This document shows, one piece after another, positions 2,591-56,931 of a stretch of DNA of 64,000 nucleotides (position 1 is the first letter of the stretch; each line of letters begins with the position of its first letter). The translations under genes were made by a program, and so were the position numbers. Source of the stretch: Sphaerisporangium siamense (GTDB lineage Bacteria > Actinomycetota > Actinomycetes > Streptosporangiales > Streptosporangiaceae); contig NZ_JACHND010000001.1 in NCBI RefSeq assembly GCF_014205275.1, positions 7,316,001-7,380,000 of the forward strand, read 5' to 3'. The notes beneath the pieces are model-generated. The model was not told the DNA's origin and did no database searches. It saw nothing but the letters and a program-made list of their open reading frames with translations.

Positions 2591-3250
2591 TCAGGTCACC
2601 AGGCCCCTGCGGTAGGCGTAGACCACCGCCTGCACGCGGTCGCGCAGGTCGAGCTTGGTGAGGATGCGCGACACGTACGTCTTGACGGTCTCCTGGCTGA
2701 TCACCAGCGTGGCGGCGATCTCGCTGTTGGACCGGCCGTCGGCGATCAGTCGCAGCACCTCCAGCTCACGCGGCGTCAGCGCGGCGTGCTCCGGCGCGGC
2801 CTCGGCGGGGCGGATCCGCGACGCGTACCGGCCGACGAGCTGCCGCGTCACCTCCGGCGCCAGCAGCGCGGCGCCCGCCGCGACGATGCGGATCCCATGC
2901 AGCAGCTGCGCCGGCGGGGCGTCCTTGAGCAGGAACCCGCTCGCCCCGGCCCGCAGCGCCTCGTAGACGTACTCGTCCAGGTTGAACGTGGTCACCACGA
3001 GCACCTTGACCGGATGCTCCACCCCGGCGCCGGCCAGCAGGCGGGTCGCCTCGATGCCGTCGAGCACCGGCATCCGCACGTCCATCACCACGATGTCGGG
3101 GCGCAGCCGGTGGGCGAGATCCACCGCGGTGCGGCCGTCACCACACTCGCCCACCACCTCCAGGTCGGGCTGCCCGTCGATGATCGTCGCGAAGCCGGTG
3201 CGGATCAGCGCCTGGTCGTCGCAGACCAGGACCCGGATCGGCACGGTCAC
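2591..3250 (-). CDS. NarL/FixJ-family response regulator
   Basis: A 219-residue two-domain regulator. The receiver has the acidic pair in VLVCDDQALIRTGF, the phosphoacceptor Asp in DIVVMDVRMP, and the conserved Lys in GFLLKDAPP. The C-terminal LuxR-type helix-turn-helix starts at LTPRELEVLRLIADGRSNSE and has the recognition helix in SQETVKTYVSRILTKL. It is encoded downstream of its kinase with a GTGA overlap (GTG at 3250, kinase stop at 3247), so the pair is translationally coupled. The CPBP protease gene upstream belongs to the same transcript. Confidence 0.93.
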   Translation of the reverse strand: MTVPIRVLVCDDQALIRTGFATIIDGQPDLEVVGECGDGRTAVDLAHRLRPDIVVMDVRMPVLDGIEATRLLAGAGVEHPVKVLVVTTFNLDEYVYEALRAGASGFLLKDAPPAQLLHGIRIVAAGAALLAPEVTRQLVGRYASRIRPAEAAPEHAALTPRELEVLRLIADGRSNSEIAATLVISQETVKTYVSRILTKLDLRDRVQAVVYAYRRGLVT

Positions 3251-52480: not shown

Positions 52481-53569
52481 GTGCGTCGCCCCAGGGTGAA
52501 GGCCGAGCATCGCCCGCACCGGTTCGCCGACGGGACCGTGCGCATCGGCGGCGAGATCTACGGCGTGGCGGCGGAGATCGACGATCCCGACGGGTGGGCG
52601 TGGGCGGCGCTCTCACTCATGGACGGAACCCTCCCGACCGCCGCCCTAGTGTCGCGACTAAGAACCATTTTCCCGGAAATGTCCGGCCAAGTGGCGGAGT
52701 CCGTCGTCGCCCAGCTCGTCGATTCCGGATACGTCGAGGACGCCGCCGCCGTGCCCCCGCCCGAGCTGACCCCGCGGGAAGTGGAACGCTACAGCAGGAA
52801 CCACGCCTATTTCCGGCGCGTCGACCTGACCCCGCGCGTCCACGGCTGGGAGGCGCAGCTCGCGCTCAAGAAGGCGCGCGTCGTGGTGCTCGGCCTCGGC
52901 GGCACCGGCAGCCACGCGGCCTGGGCGCTCGCCGCCGCGGGCGTGGGGCGGCTGCACTGCGTGGACCCCGACGTGGTGGAGCCGTCCAACCTCAACCGGC
53001 AGGCCCTGTACGGCGAGGCCGACATCGGGCACGGCAAGGCGGAGGTCGCCGTGCGCAGGCTGCGCGAGTTCAACTCCGCGGTGACGATCACCGGCGCCCG
53101 GCGCCGCGTCGAGACCCGGCCGCAGCTCGCCGAGCTCATCGCCGGCGCCGACATGCTGGCGTTGTGCGCCGACGAGCCGCGCGGGCACGGCCTGCGGGTG
53201 TGGGCCAACCGGGAGTGCGCGCGGGCCGGCATCCCGTGGGCGGGCGGCGGGTACAGCGGCCCCCTGGTGACGGTCGGGGTCTACGCGCCGGGCCATCCGT
53301 GCTACGAGTGCGTCAGCGCGGGCGAGCAGGCCCGGCGGCGTCCCGGCAGCCCGGCCGACCTGGGCGGGCCCGGCGTGATCGCCACCTCGGCCGGCATCTC
53401 CGGGCACCTCGTCGCGCACGCGGTGATCACGCAGCTCACCGGCGTCCCCGCCATCCCGCCGGGGCGGGTCGGCGGGCTGAACCTGATCGCGCCCGACCAG
53501 CTCATCGACGTCCGGCACCCCTCCCGGAAGGAGTGCCCCGTCTGCGGGCCCGGACGCGACGGCCATTGA
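52481..53569 (+). CDS. ThiF/E1-like adenylating enzyme, MccB-like
   Basis: A 362-residue protein. Residues about 10-85 (RFADGTVRIGGEIYGV, WAWAALSLMDGTLPTAALV, VVAQLVDSGYVED) look like a PqqD-type peptide-recognition/winged domain. The rest is an E1 adenylation domain: VVVLGLGGTGSHAAWALAAA (ATP loop), AGVGRLHCVDPDVVEPSNLN, RQALYGEADIGHGKAEVAV, and two zinc-type pairs, HPCYECV and KECPVCGP. The GTG at 52481 follows GGGGGAGG. Size and architecture match MccB, which adenylates the C-terminal Asn of the microcin C peptide; a small ORF ending in Asn follows 75 bases later. There is no YcaO, MoeB rhodanese or thiamine partner, so sulfur-carrier or TOMM roles are less likely. Confidence 0.75.
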   Translation: MRRPRVKAEHRPHRFADGTVRIGGEIYGVAAEIDDPDGWAWAALSLMDGTLPTAALVSRLRTIFPEMSGQVAESVVAQLVDSGYVEDAAAVPPPELTPREVERYSRNHAYFRRVDLTPRVHGWEAQLALKKARVVVLGLGGTGSHAAWALAAAGVGRLHCVDPDVVEPSNLNRQALYGEADIGHGKAEVAVRRLREFNSAVTITGARRRVETRPQLAELIAGADMLALCADEPRGHGLRVWANRECARAGIPWAGGGYSGPLVTVGVYAPGHPCYECVSAGEQARRRPGSPADLGGPGVIATSAGISGHLVAHAVITQLTGVPAIPPGRVGGLNLIAPDQLIDVRHPSRKECPVCGPGRDGH

Positions 53570-53644
53570 CCTCCCCCGGCGGCGCCAGGACGATCAGGTC
53601 AGTCCGTGCGGTCATGCCGCGAGGCCCCTACCGGAAGGCACCCC

Positions 53645-53773
53645 ATGAGTCACGCAGAAAGCGAGATGCAGCCTCCCGAGATCGAACGCGACGGCGAGGT
53701 CAGGCCGCCGATCGCGATCCGCAGGCTGGACAAGATCGAGACCACCGCCGACAGCTCCGGCAACTCCAACTGA
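53645..53773 (+). CDS. Candidate precursor peptide ending in Asn (42 aa)
   Basis: This small ORF of 42 codons starts at an ATG after GGAAGG (6-7 base spacing) and ends TGA. It begins MSHAESEMQPPEIERDG, is acidic then basic (IAIRRLDK), and ends IETTADSSGNSN. The final SGNSN resembles the TGNAN end of microcin C precursor MccA, and a C-terminal Asn is the defining requirement of MccB substrates. It sits between the E1-like gene and a perfect hairpin. Its codon use is normal for the region. Other RiPP classes are not excluded, but no lanthipeptide, lasso or radical-SAM enzyme is nearby. Confidence 0.6.
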   Translation: MSHAESEMQPPEIERDGEVRPPIAIRRLDKIETTADSSGNSN

Positions 53774-53786
53774 TCCAGAAGTGAAT

Positions 53787-53814
53787 CGGTAGGCGGGTGG
53801 GAATCCGCCTACCG
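53787..53814 (+). terminator. Perfect 10-bp hairpin after the precursor peptide
   Basis: CGGTAGGCGG-gtgggaat-CCGCCTACCG begins 14 bases after the peptide stop codon. It lacks a T-tract, so it may act as a partial terminator or as a 3' stabiliser of a short peptide transcript. Confidence 0.6.
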
Positions 53815-54002
53815 ACCTGGCGTCGCGCCGTCCCGGCACGCCCTTCCCGAGGTTCCCTTCCGGGGCCGCCACGCGCCCCCGCCGGACGCCCGTCCCACGC
53901 CGCCCCCTCTCGCCGGCGACGGGCCCCGTGACCGCCTCGCGCCTCCCGGCGGCGCGCCCGTACCTGACCGGCGGTCATCGACCGACAGAATGGGAGGAAA
54001 CC

Positions 54003-54617
54003 TTGGACGCGTTCCACCGGCTCCGGGCCGCGGAGGGGGAAGTGCTCGCCGTCGCCGAGTACCAGCGGGAGTTCGACGAGGTCTTCGCCTCGTCCCGCGA
54101 CACGGTGTGGAAGCTCGAACGGGCGCAGGTGTTCGACGAGACGGGCCTGGCGAGCTGGCACGCCATGGTCGAGGGCGACTGGGCGCGCTCGCTGGCGCTG
54201 ATGGAGGAGCACCGCCCGGCGCTGGCGCGCCTGTACGCGGCGCGGCCGGACTTCCGCCGGCTGCGCGTGGTGGAGAGCCCGGTCACGCCGTACCTGCAGT
54301 GGGAGATGCACTTCTTCGCGGTGCGGGCGGCGGCCGGCGAGCACATCCGGGTGATGCCGGCGAGCGCGCTGCGCGAGGCCGAGACCACGGCGCCGCTGCC
54401 GGAACTGGTGATCTTCTCGCGGTCGCTGTGTTACCAGGTGCTCTACGACGCGATCGGCGCGCACACCGGGGCCCGCAGGGTCACCGACCCGGCGGTGGTC
54501 GCCCCGTGCCTGGACGCGCTCGCCCGCCTCTACCACCGGGGCGAGGAGCTGGCCGGCTACCACGCCCGCGCGATCGCGCCGCTGCCTCCGCCGCGGCCGG
54601 GCCCCGGCCCGGGGTGA
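54003..54617 (+). CDS. DUF6879-family protein
   Basis: About 204 residues with the DUF6879 pattern: EVFASSRDTVWKLERAQVFD, then FRRLRVVESPVTPYLQWEMH, FFAVRAAAGEHIRVMPASAL and LPELVIFSRSL. The start chosen is a TTG at 54003 because GGGAGGAAA lies five bases upstream; a GTG at 53928 would add 25 residues with no ribosome site. The family is common in actinomycetes, often beside XRE regulators, and has no established function. Its position 230 bases after the candidate peptide, same strand, suggests a third gene of the ThiF/MccB-like locus. A Pro/Gly-rich C-terminus is present. Confidence 0.7.
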   Translation: MDAFHRLRAAEGEVLAVAEYQREFDEVFASSRDTVWKLERAQVFDETGLASWHAMVEGDWARSLALMEEHRPALARLYAARPDFRRLRVVESPVTPYLQWEMHFFAVRAAAGEHIRVMPASALREAETTAPLPELVIFSRSLCYQVLYDAIGAHTGARRVTDPAVVAPCLDALARLYHRGEELAGYHARAIAPLPPPRPGPGPG

Positions 54618-54622
54618 GACCG

Positions 54623-55309
54623 CTAGGGCCCGGCGCGCGGCGGGCCGAGGAGGCCGAGGTCGTGGGCGTGGACGGCGGCCTGGGTGCGGTCGCGCAGGCC
54701 CAGGCGGGTGAGGACGCGGGAGATGTGGTTCTTCACCGTGCCCTCGCTGAGGTAGAGGCGGGCGGCGATCTCCCTGTTGGTCCAGCCGAGCGCCACCAGG
54801 CGCAGCACCTCGACCTCCCGGGGCGTCAGCGCGTCCGTCGGCGGGGGCGGCGGTTCGGGGACGGCGGGTTCGGCGCGGAGCCGCAGCCCCCGGGTGAGGT
54901 GGGCGGTGGCGGCGGCGTCGAGCGGGGTGACGCCCGCGTGCGCCAGCCGCACCGCGCCGGCCAGCTCGCGGGCGGGCAGGTCCTTCAGCAGGTAGCCGCA
55001 CGCCCCCGACCGCATCGCCTCGACGACGTACTCCTCGTCGTCGAAGGTGGTCAGCATCAGCACCCGGCACGCGGGCAGGCGCCGGGCGATGACGGCCGCG
55101 GCGCGCACGCCGTCGAGGCCGGGCATCCGCACGTCCATGAGGACCACGTCGGGGGTGAGTTCCGTGGCCTTCTCGACGGCCTCGTGCCCGTCGGCGGCCA
55201 CTCCGGCGACGCTGATGCCGGGCTCGATGTCCAGCAGCGAGGCGATGCTCTCCCTGACCAGCCGCTGGTCGTCCACGACCAGGACGCGCACGGGGCCGTC
55301 CGCGCTCAC
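54623..55309 (-). CDS. NarL/FixJ-family response regulator
   Basis: A 228-residue regulator: receiver with VRVLVVDDQRLVRESIASLL, phosphoacceptor Asp in DVVLMDVRMPGLDGV, and Lys in GYLLKDLPAREL; LuxR-type helix-turn-helix LTPREVEVLRLVALGWTNRE with recognition helix SEGTVKNHISRVLTRLGLRD. A GTG start at 55309 overlaps the kinase stop as GTGA. A Pro-rich linker (PAVPEPPPPPTDA) joins the domains. It is convergent with the DUF6879 gene (5-base gap). Confidence 0.92.
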   Translation of the reverse strand: MSADGPVRVLVVDDQRLVRESIASLLDIEPGISVAGVAADGHEAVEKATELTPDVVLMDVRMPGLDGVRAAAVIARRLPACRVLMLTTFDDEEYVVEAMRSGACGYLLKDLPARELAGAVRLAHAGVTPLDAAATAHLTRGLRLRAEPAVPEPPPPPTDALTPREVEVLRLVALGWTNREIAARLYLSEGTVKNHISRVLTRLGLRDRTQAAVHAHDLGLLGPPRAGP

Positions 55310-56685
55310 GGCGTGCCTCCGGCCGGGGAAGGCGGCATTCCGGCGGGGAACGGCGGGGTCACGGCGCCGGCGTGGGCGGGCGGGGCGGGGGCGCGCGGGA
55401 TCGTGATCGTGATCCGGGTGCCCGCGCCGGGGCCGGTGGCCAGGTCGAGGTGGCCTCCGGCCAGCCGGACGCGCTCGCGCATGCCGGTCAGGCCGAAGCC
55501 CTCGGCCCCGGCGGCGAACCCGCGCCCGTCGTCGGCGACGACCAGCCGCGCCTCCGCGTCGCCGAGGGCGAGGCCGACGGACACGCGGGTGGCGCCCGCG
55601 TGGCGGCGGGCGTTGGTGAGCGCCTCCTGCGCGGCACGGTACAACGTGGTGCGCACGCGCGGGTCGTAGCCGGTCTCGTCGCCGCCGAGGTCCAGCTCGA
55701 CGGCGGGGGCCTGGCCCGCGGCGCCCGCGGCGAGGTCGGTGAGGGCGGCGAGCAGCGAGAACTCCGGGGCGGGCGCGGCGGGCGCGCGCAGCGTGCGCAC
55801 CGAGCGGCGCACGTCGTCCAGGGCGCGGCGGGTGGACTCGCGGGCGTCGGCGAGGGCCTGCCGCGCCAGGGCCGGGTCGCGCTCGCCGAAGGCGGTGGCC
55901 TTCTCCAGCAGGACGGCGACGGCGGTGAGGTGGTGGCCGAGGCCGTCGTGGATGTCGCGGGCGACGCGCACGCGCTCGGCGGCGGCGGCCAGCTCGCCCG
56001 CCTGGCCCGCGTAGGCGGCCAGCCGCGCGTTGGACTCCCGCAGCCGCGCGCGGTCCTCCTCCGCGCCGGCCGCCACGCCCGCGACCGCGAAGGAGAGGAT
56101 CAGCCCGACGCCCAGCATGAGCAGGTCGGACACGTACTCGATGTCGCCGGGCCAGCCCGGCGCCGCCCACTGGTACCCGGCCAGGACGACGGCGGCGCAC
56201 GCCACCGCCGACACCGCGCCGGCCGTGCGGCCGAAGGACAGGCGGGCGGTGAAAGGGACGAGCACCAGGAGGACGTGCGACAGGCCGGAGCCGTCGAAGG
56301 CCGTCACGAGGACGAACAGCGCCAGCCGGAGGCCGAGCAGTGCCGCGGCGACGCGCGCGGGCGGCGGGCCGGGCCGGAAGCGGCGGGATTCGATCAGGTC
56401 GAGCGCGAACAGCGCCCCGATGCCCGCGGCGAACACCACGACGGAGAGCGGCCCTCCGGGCCCCAGGGGCGCCCACGGCCCGGCCGGGAGCGGGGAGCCA
56501 CCGCCACCGTCCCCGTGGCGCAGCGCCGCGTCGTAGAGCCCCGCGAGGAGTACGGCGGCGTACACGAGGAAGGAGGCCCGCCGGGCGGCCCGCGCCGAGG
56601 ACACCGGCGACGCGACGGAGGACACCCGCCGCACGACCGGCGGCACGGCCGATGGCGCACGCCGGACGGTCCGGGACGTTGACAC
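55306..56685 (-). CDS. Sensor histidine kinase (HisKA_3 type)
   Basis: About 460 residues with an N-terminal sensor of roughly six hydrophobic segments (FLVYAAVLLAGLYDAAL, LSVVVFAAGIGALFALDLI and onward). The dimerisation box is ERVRVARDIHDGLGHHLTAV (phosphoacceptor His in DIHD). The ATPase boxes are AAQEALTNARRHAGATRV, LVVADDGRGFAAG and GFGLTGMRERVRLAGG. The start is uncertain: the GTG at 56685 is used here, but an ATG at 56751 is in frame and neither has a good ribosome site. It is coupled to the downstream regulator and divergent from a small membrane protein gene that may be its target. Confidence 0.85.
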   Translation of the reverse strand: MSTSRTVRRAPSAVPPVVRRVSSVASPVSSARAARRASFLVYAAVLLAGLYDAALRHGDGGGGSPLPAGPWAPLGPGGPLSVVVFAAGIGALFALDLIESRRFRPGPPPARVAAALLGLRLALFVLVTAFDGSGLSHVLLVLVPFTARLSFGRTAGAVSAVACAAVVLAGYQWAAPGWPGDIEYVSDLLMLGVGLILSFAVAGVAAGAEEDRARLRESNARLAAYAGQAGELAAAAERVRVARDIHDGLGHHLTAVAVLLEKATAFGERDPALARQALADARESTRRALDDVRRSVRTLRAPAAPAPEFSLLAALTDLAAGAAGQAPAVELDLGGDETGYDPRVRTTLYRAAQEALTNARRHAGATRVSVGLALGDAEARLVVADDGRGFAAGAEGFGLTGMRERVRLAGGHLDLATGPGAGTRITITIPRAPAPPAHAGAVTPPFPAGMPPSPAGGTP

Positions 56686-56931
56686 GTCCTCAGCGTACGC
56701 GGGGAGCTCCAGGGTGCGGGGGCGTGCGCGCGGGGTCTGGCCGTGCGGCACGTGCCGGATGGCACATGGGGCGCGGGCCGCGTGACGGACCCTCGCCGAC
56801 CGGCACTTACGGGCGGGTGGACGGCGTCCCTACCGTCTGCTGCGGATCTCTTCCACCCGTCGTCCGAAACCGCTCGCGCGGCCGGACCGCAGACCGTGCC
56901 CCGGCGCCGTCCGGGGATGTCAGGAGTCCTC

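Follow-up and report, generated by a model that had tools for sequence, protein, structure and literature searches.

A predicted RiPP cassette with an RRE-ThiF adenylyltransferase at its core in Sphaerisporangium siamense and other soil actinomycetes, related to but distinct from the microcin C system

The enzymes MccB, PaaA, GrcB, EnfB and IndF are described, in the accessible text of PMC12150305 and PMC12250964, as adenylating a carboxylate that is then captured by a nucleophile of the peptide. In the case of EnfB and IndF, in which a recognition element of ribosomally synthesised and post-translationally modified peptides (the RiPP recognition element, RRE) is fused to a ThiF-type domain, the C-terminal carboxylate is activated according to the same texts. 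The accessible part of PMC12150305 presents a network of 27,400 RRE-ThiF fusions. The characterised RRE-ThiF RiPPs covered by the available texts are a small set, mainly from streptococci, enterococci and enterobacteria, and a word search in the accessible text of an RRE-ThiF review returned no actinobacterial example. Here, we describe a locus of Sphaerisporangium siamense in a stretch of 64,000 nucleotides (the window; contig NZ_JACHND010000001.1, positions 7,316,001 to 7,380,000), in which an RRE-ThiF (E1-like) adenylyltransferase, referred to as E1, is followed by a 42-codon open reading frame (ORF). The locus is predicted from its sequence to be a RiPP cassette built on this enzyme. The cassette is real and widespread in soil actinomycetes, and is related to, but distinct from, the microcin C system. 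A literature search, carried out mostly without subscription journals, found no description of this actinomycete E1-precursor family, although E1 may well be a node in the network of PMC12150305.

The E1 gene encodes 362 amino acids on the forward strand, from the start codon GTG at 52481, which is preceded by GGGGGAGGTGG, to the stop at 53569 (Pfam ThiF, E=5.3e-45). Residues 1-96 (52481..52768) form the N-terminal RRE. After 75 bases, the precursor gene extends on the same strand from ATG 53645 to the stop at 53773, and encodes MSHAESEMQPPEIERDGEVRPPIAIRRLDKIETTADSSGNSN. The peptide consists of a conserved leader or recognition motif, IAIRRLDKIETT (53711..53746), and the putative core, a tail of variable type that reads ADSSGNSN in the window and ends in Asn (53747..53770). 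Similar to the EnfB/enterofaecin, IndF and GrcB systems, the locus combines an RRE fused to a ThiF-type domain with a short leader-tail precursor, and no sulfur-transfer Cys is needed. The leader motif reported for EnfB is (V/I)RKA (PMC12250964, accessible text), and that of the actinomycetes is IRxLDK. By contrast, the systems described in the available texts belong to Bacillota, their tails (WWIVI, NWYFI, E...C) are unlike the actinomycete tails, and no DUF6879 or PqqD-M50 partner is reported for them in these texts.

The first-pass annotation of the window had pointed to the 42-codon ORF as overlooked, with a good ribosome site and an SGNSN end, and the comparison with relatives agrees with this. 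The sequence GGAAGG lies six bases 5′ of the ATG, and the encoded peptide ends in SSGNSN. The small ORF appears to be a real gene, and more than a chance reading frame, because it is conserved beside E1, shows a synonymous bias, and its profile matches are confined to E1-bearing genomes. The last approximately 12 residues are identical in the nearest five precursors, and the tail ADSSGNSN is shared by the window, L034, L035, L036 and L037. In the last 21 codons, 4.0 out of 15.5 synonymous sites and 2.0 out of 47.5 nonsynonymous sites were changed between the window and L035; the comparison with the nearest pair member, L034, was uninformative (zero synonymous and two nonsynonymous changes). 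When a profile was built from 17 precursors, 24 out of 149 related genomes gave a match, all of which were also among the E1-bearing genomes. The precursor query found a single site in the window's own genome (8.5 Mb, two contigs), namely the locus at 53645-53773. A plasmid-borne origin of the precursor was rejected, as no match was found in plasmids at E<=0.1.

The E1 profile matched 133 out of 341 genomes of the family at E<=1e-45, including 112 of the 283 good-quality genomes and 26 of the 68 genera. If the assignment is true, a large actinomycete branch joins the RRE-ThiF RiPPs. Among the matches listed, most were full length and below 1e-120, and the weaker remainder may represent other RRE-ThiF lineages. 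Among 394 genomes drawn evenly from the class, 13 matched E1 at E<=1e-70, including three that do not belong to the family. Loci were drawn from the matches listed in the family-wide search, which held at least 130 loci at more than 400 bits; the set comprised the flanks of 119 stretches and loci of 1.5 kb, minus 27 duplicates or overlaps, and matches below 400 bits were excluded. The small ORF that the first-pass annotation expected beside homologous enzymes was found, within the search range, in 110 out of 130 E1 loci by its leader motif, which can be written as [IVL]x[IVL](R/K)xL(D/E)(K/R)xETT. Ten more precursors were recovered by profile (L044, L128, L129, L145, L146, L149, L152, L158, L159 and L173), and ten loci had none. 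E1 carries the substitution N170D in three of these precursor-less loci (L120, L147 and L155), and also D231G in L147; a joint function of E1 and the peptide would lead one to expect such decay of the enzyme.

That the small ORF encodes a regulatory or stress peptide, which merely lies beside a housekeeping E1, is highly unlikely. The ten loci without a precursor would fit such a peptide, as would four orphan precursors that have no E1 nearby (L224-L227). Nevertheless, an E1 is encoded at another site in all four orphan-bearing genomes and may act on the orphans in trans, and the precursor stays beside E1 despite switching side, being upstream in 61 and downstream in 56 of 117 loci.

The best matches of E1 in the PDB are MccB (4.8e-27) and PaaA (1.4e-25). 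With a profile of the catalytic domain, MccB is nearest by a slim margin (163 bits, 7e-47), followed by PaaA (158 bits) and MoeB (157 bits). The first-pass annotation described an MccB-sized enzyme with an N-terminal clamp-like domain; the size and the presence of an RRE agree with this description, but the N-terminus has its sequence match in PaaA. A profile of 16 E1 N-termini matches the RRE of PaaA at 4.9e-10, and the match of E1 to PaaA is colinear through the RRE and the adenylation domain. Individually, ten of the 16 N-termini matched Pfam PaaA-like_N (best 8.2e-5) and eight matched PqqD (best 2.4e-4) at E<=1, whereas that of the window matched neither at this threshold. The comparison with E. 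coli MccB detected no sequence similarity in the N-terminus, although RREs are divergent in sequence. The RRE of the pantocin A system (PaaA/PaaP) is thus the closest in sequence; nonetheless, its Glu-Glu-Asn core, long follower and PaaB oxygenase were not seen at the S. siamense locus and its scanned neighbours. The Pfam scan covered 12 window proteins beside E1, four of which had no family; the 42-residue precursor had no family either.

The adenylation residues of E1 are conserved. GxGGxG, R173, Q174 and K186 are invariant in 129 out of 129 E1s, and D231 is present in 128, including that of the window; the equivalent residues are needed for the activity of PaaA and EnfB, according to the accessible text of PMC12250964. 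A230 and P233 (forming ADxP), W241 and Y258 are common to the E1 family and MccB, and absent from MoeB and ThiF. In a tree of 51 rows, the E1 family forms one clade of 36 rows (support 96/93, or 100/98 without L049), and MoeB, ThiF and MoeZ form a separate clade of five rows (100/100). MccB has a long branch (2.84), and its placement is unsure. A sulfur-transfer Cys at the column of ThiF C184 and MoeB C187, or at the three columns on either side, was found in none of the 129 E1s. Orthology with MoeB/ThiF was ruled out by the separate clade and the missing Cys, and the grouping with sulfur-transfer enzymes that the first-pass annotation had considered is not observed.

These results also bear on thiocarboxylate formation or conjugation of the ThiF/MoeB or ubiquitin type. 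Gly-ended tails would be the natural substrates of such an enzyme, as in ThiS and MoaD, and they are the second largest class among the precursors (31 out of 110). This chemistry is very improbable, however, given the missing Cys, the position of the E1 family apart from the MoeB/ThiF/MoeZ clade, and the Asn at the end of the window tail.

The constant part of the precursor is the leader, I-x-I-R-x-L-D-K-x-E-T-T, which the 7-residue MccA type lacks, and the variable middle that the first-pass annotation had expected is not observed. The pattern [ILV]x[IVLF](R/K)xLxxxE(T)(T) was derived from 88 distinct peptides; Leu and Arg/Lys are present in 88/88, the first Thr after Glu in 86/88 and the second in 77/88. 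The Glu of ETT is likewise present in 88/88, but the search motif demanded it. After ETT, the tail has 6-13 residues and differs between clades. Tail types, set by regular expressions, were counted in 111 loci with wide flanks: 55 are S/N-rich, 32 Gly-ended, 11 Cys-containing and three of other types, and in ten none was found. The constant leader is a searchable motif that leads to precursors overlooked by annotation, such as those of the Streptomyces plasmid NZ_CP107901, whose annotation includes E1 but misses two precursors. We also found tandem precursors, two to four per locus, which combine one leader with different, mostly Cys-containing tails (L170, L164, L165, L044 and L216).

The C-terminal residue of the tail was predicted by the first-pass annotation to be a conserved Asn. 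Among 110 distinct precursors, the last residue is N in 46, G in 31, S in 12, A in eight, T in seven, Q in two, and C, D, M and E in one each, which rules out strict conservation. C-terminal Asn is common in the branch with S/N-rich tails, where it was found in 54 out of 72 loci, but it is not a rule, and the other 18 end in S (10), T (5), Q (2) or A (1). These non-Asn ends include GNSNS (eight loci), GNST, GQ, GS and GA, and some occur near the clade of the window. The GNSNS tails were considered as a single clade, which was dropped since L108 is placed apart from the others. L162, with the tail CMSEA, lies inside the S/N clade in one tree and outside it in another. Tails of more distant relatives end in Gly, beside a membrane protease with an HExxH motif.

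A 13-member E1 clade (FastTree support 0.98) is informative on which part of the peptide is kept. In this clade, 13 out of 13 tails end in Asn, 12 of them as GxSN, and at the same time ETT decays to EPT, ETK, ETA, EIT, GPT or SGA, with the Glu gone in L129, L149 and L159. In these loci, selection keeps the end of the tail and not the Glu.

On the basis of the sequence, the most likely role of E1 is to activate the tail of the neighbouring peptide and modify it. From gene conservation, RRE homology, the adenylation residues, the split into leader and tail, and co-occurrence, we infer C-terminal activation, capture and leader removal in the following course. Within the 42-residue precursor, the strand IxIRxLDKxETT of the leader would be bound by the N-terminal RRE of E1, and the adenylation domain, with ATP, would convert the C-terminal carboxylate of the tail (ADSSGNSN in the window) to an acyl-adenylate. 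The adenylate would then be captured within the peptide, most likely to give a macrocycle or an imide (-18 Da), and the exact bond would depend on whether the tail is S/N-rich, ends in Gly or contains Cys. The leader would be cleaved off, in many relatives, by the HExxH membrane protease, which has an RRE-like N-terminus of its own. This course, with C-terminal activation and internal capture, is moderately probable. It is favoured because the leader is constant and the tail varies, and mainly because the 13-member clade loses ETT and keeps GxSN-COOH. With a constant leader and typed tails, one enzyme and a panel of tails could be used to ask how the E1 fold picks between a macrocycle, an imide, a thiolactone and nucleotide transfer.

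Several results weigh against C-terminal activation. The C-terminal residues are widely spread across the 110 precursors, and the Glu, rather than the C-terminus, is the best conserved position following the leader, so that a PaaA-like activation of a side chain is possible. Some Gly tails (e.g. LREGG) have no Ser, Thr, Cys or Lys nucleophile save the threonines of ETT; this applies to 11 out of 46 distinct tails of the upstream type. The precursors without Glu were weak recoveries of the profile (L129, E=0.026; L173, 0.045; L149, 0.25; L159, 0.26), although three of the four are plainly like L146; the precursor of L173 lies on the opposite strand. The structure prediction of E1, with the sequences of the window, L032 and L033, had a mean predicted local distance difference test score of 34.1 and gave no structural support. 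Moreover, the window cluster has no protease close by, and the sole protease homologue detected for the window genome is distant (30% identical, C1:2284781), with no precursor or E1 match around it.

Adenylation of the side chain of the ETT Glu, followed by attack of a nearby amide, Thr or Cys, would correspond to PaaA, which acts on Glu16/17, and GrcB, which links an internal Glu to the C-terminal Cys (PMC12250964, accessible text). The N-terminal domain of E1, nearest to PaaA, and the Glu of the 88 motif-anchored precursors, a residue that the motif required, fit with this chemistry. We consider it possible, but rather unlikely. The Glu is replaced in L129 and L149 (by G), L159 (by S or G, according to the alignment) and L173 (by Q), though the checked active-site residues of their E1s are kept, and the GxSN tail persists in L129, L149 and L159. 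Consequently, the notion of an invariant, and hence modified, Glu was dropped. In addition, the window precursor has a single Glu and no Glu-Glu-Asn, and no PaaB-type gene was found among the neighbours searched.

The first-pass annotation had proposed a microcin C-type pathway, in which the C-terminal Asn is converted via a succinimide to a nucleotide phosphoramidate, and the product is a peptidyl-nucleotide. The match of the catalytic domain, for which MccB ranks first, the shared ADxP, Trp241 and Tyr258, the Asn ends of 54 S/N-tail loci, and the resemblance of SGNSN to the TGNAN end of MccA cited in that annotation are in agreement with it. Nevertheless, this pathway is quite improbable. 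Reported microcin C-like precursors all end in Asn, as the N-P bond needs, without exception in the accessible text of PMC6495379, whereas Asn is missing in 18 out of 72 S/N-tail loci, including GNSNS and GNST near the clade of the window. The precursor, as had been noted, is longer than the 7-residue MccA, with a long leader predicted to be bound by the RRE. The absence of MccC-, MccE- and MccF-like genes, also noted before, holds among the window neighbours scanned with Pfam. One major facilitator superfamily (MFS) transporter of a related locus showed no similarity to the MFS transporter at the MccC position of E. coli (E=1.1, one pair compared). The best remaining support for an Asn-specific chemistry in the S/N-tail branch is the 13-member GxSN clade. 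It is improbable, but conceivable, that one RRE-E1 lineage with one leader shifted its chemistry with the tail (Cys, thiolactone-like; Gly with the membrane protease; S/N with DUF6879), and that the Asn-ended branch independently became Asn-specific, giving a succinimide or a peptidyl-nucleotide; it would thereby be the equivalent of microcin C in Gram-positive bacteria, but directed by a leader.

The gene downstream of the precursor encodes a DUF6879 protein on the forward strand (Pfam E=1.7e-36) and ends at 54617. The start TTG at 54003, directly after GGGAGGAAACC, seems more likely than the alternative GTG at 53928. DUF6879 is a same-strand neighbour in 31 out of 111 loci, corresponding to 31 of the 55 loci with S/N-rich tails and 0 of the 46 with other typed tails, and is predicted to be a partner of the cassette in the S/N-tail branch specifically. 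Fisher values for the tail-type associations were 2.7e-11 and 5.9e-8, and are overstated because the type counts were not corrected for shared descent. The host genome has six DUF6879 copies, therefore DUF6879 has other jobs too. A role in later tailoring or immunity is a guess; the comparison with the PDB was not informative (best E 0.16), and no paper on DUF6879 was found in the literature search.

A same-strand HExxH membrane protein was found in 69 out of 111 loci, namely in 31 of 32 with Gly tails, ten of 11 with Cys tails, and 25 of 55 with S/N-rich tails. The HExxH motif is present in 43 out of 43 near-full-length copies. The N-terminus of the protease is related to the RRE of E1 (hhalign probability 61, E=8e-5), and a single leader may therefore be recognised by protease and E1 alike. 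In comparison with the daptide/YydH/LiaK metalloproteases, the copy of L045 weakly matches the NCBIfam daptide protease (5.1e-6; 25.9 bits, against a curated cut-off of 300), and the copies of L035 and L216 gave no match at 0.01. An MFS transporter occurs in 16 out of 111 loci, 15 of them on the same strand, and none lies close to the cassette of the window. Counts of missing partners are affected by contig ends, where partner absences are lower bounds. SARP/AfsR-like regulators (cluster c7, ten out of 111 loci) were found near cassettes with Gly or Cys tails, such as those of L046, L047, L048 and L165, among others.

An RNA hairpin of 13 base pairs lies directly 3′ of the precursor stop (approximately 53786-53815, forward strand). 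The hairpin is strong: the 67-nt stretch containing it has a folding energy of -33.5 kcal/mol, and comparison with dinucleotide shuffles gave z=-2.8. The hairpin and DUF6879 gene that the first-pass annotation placed after the small ORF are thus both present. Among the 55 loci whose precursor lies downstream, the 80 nt 3′ of its stop fold with z<-2 in 28 (median -2.2, base-composition shuffles). The terminator scan found none, with 0.5 expected, and the hairpin has no T-run and is not terminator-like; it is possibly a processing or attenuation element.

Other window neighbours identified with Pfam encode a YjbR protein, an amine oxidase, a glycosyltransferase, an acyltransferase, a histidine kinase and a chitinase, none of which is tied to the cassette. 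The histidine kinase gene (54623-56751, reverse strand) is convergent with the DUF6879 gene and adjoins a LuxR-type response regulator, as judged from the counterpart in L034. The orphan precursors, with no E1 in their stretch, are located at L224:8596-8880, L225:3411-3557, L226:8572-8712 and L227:8900-9040. The orphan of L224 precedes a gene with a DUF6879 motif (WKLERAQ...GDW, recognised by eye), and 3′ of that in L225 we found a candidate radical SAM protein (L225:4726-5940, CNLSCTYCY). In Bacillota, the Sporosarcina plasmid NZ_MN657156.1 (L218) possesses a short ORF, MKIRKLSNKQVSKTAVEPR, with a leader of similar style, upstream of an RRE-ThiF gene at 3001 and together with an ABC transporter.

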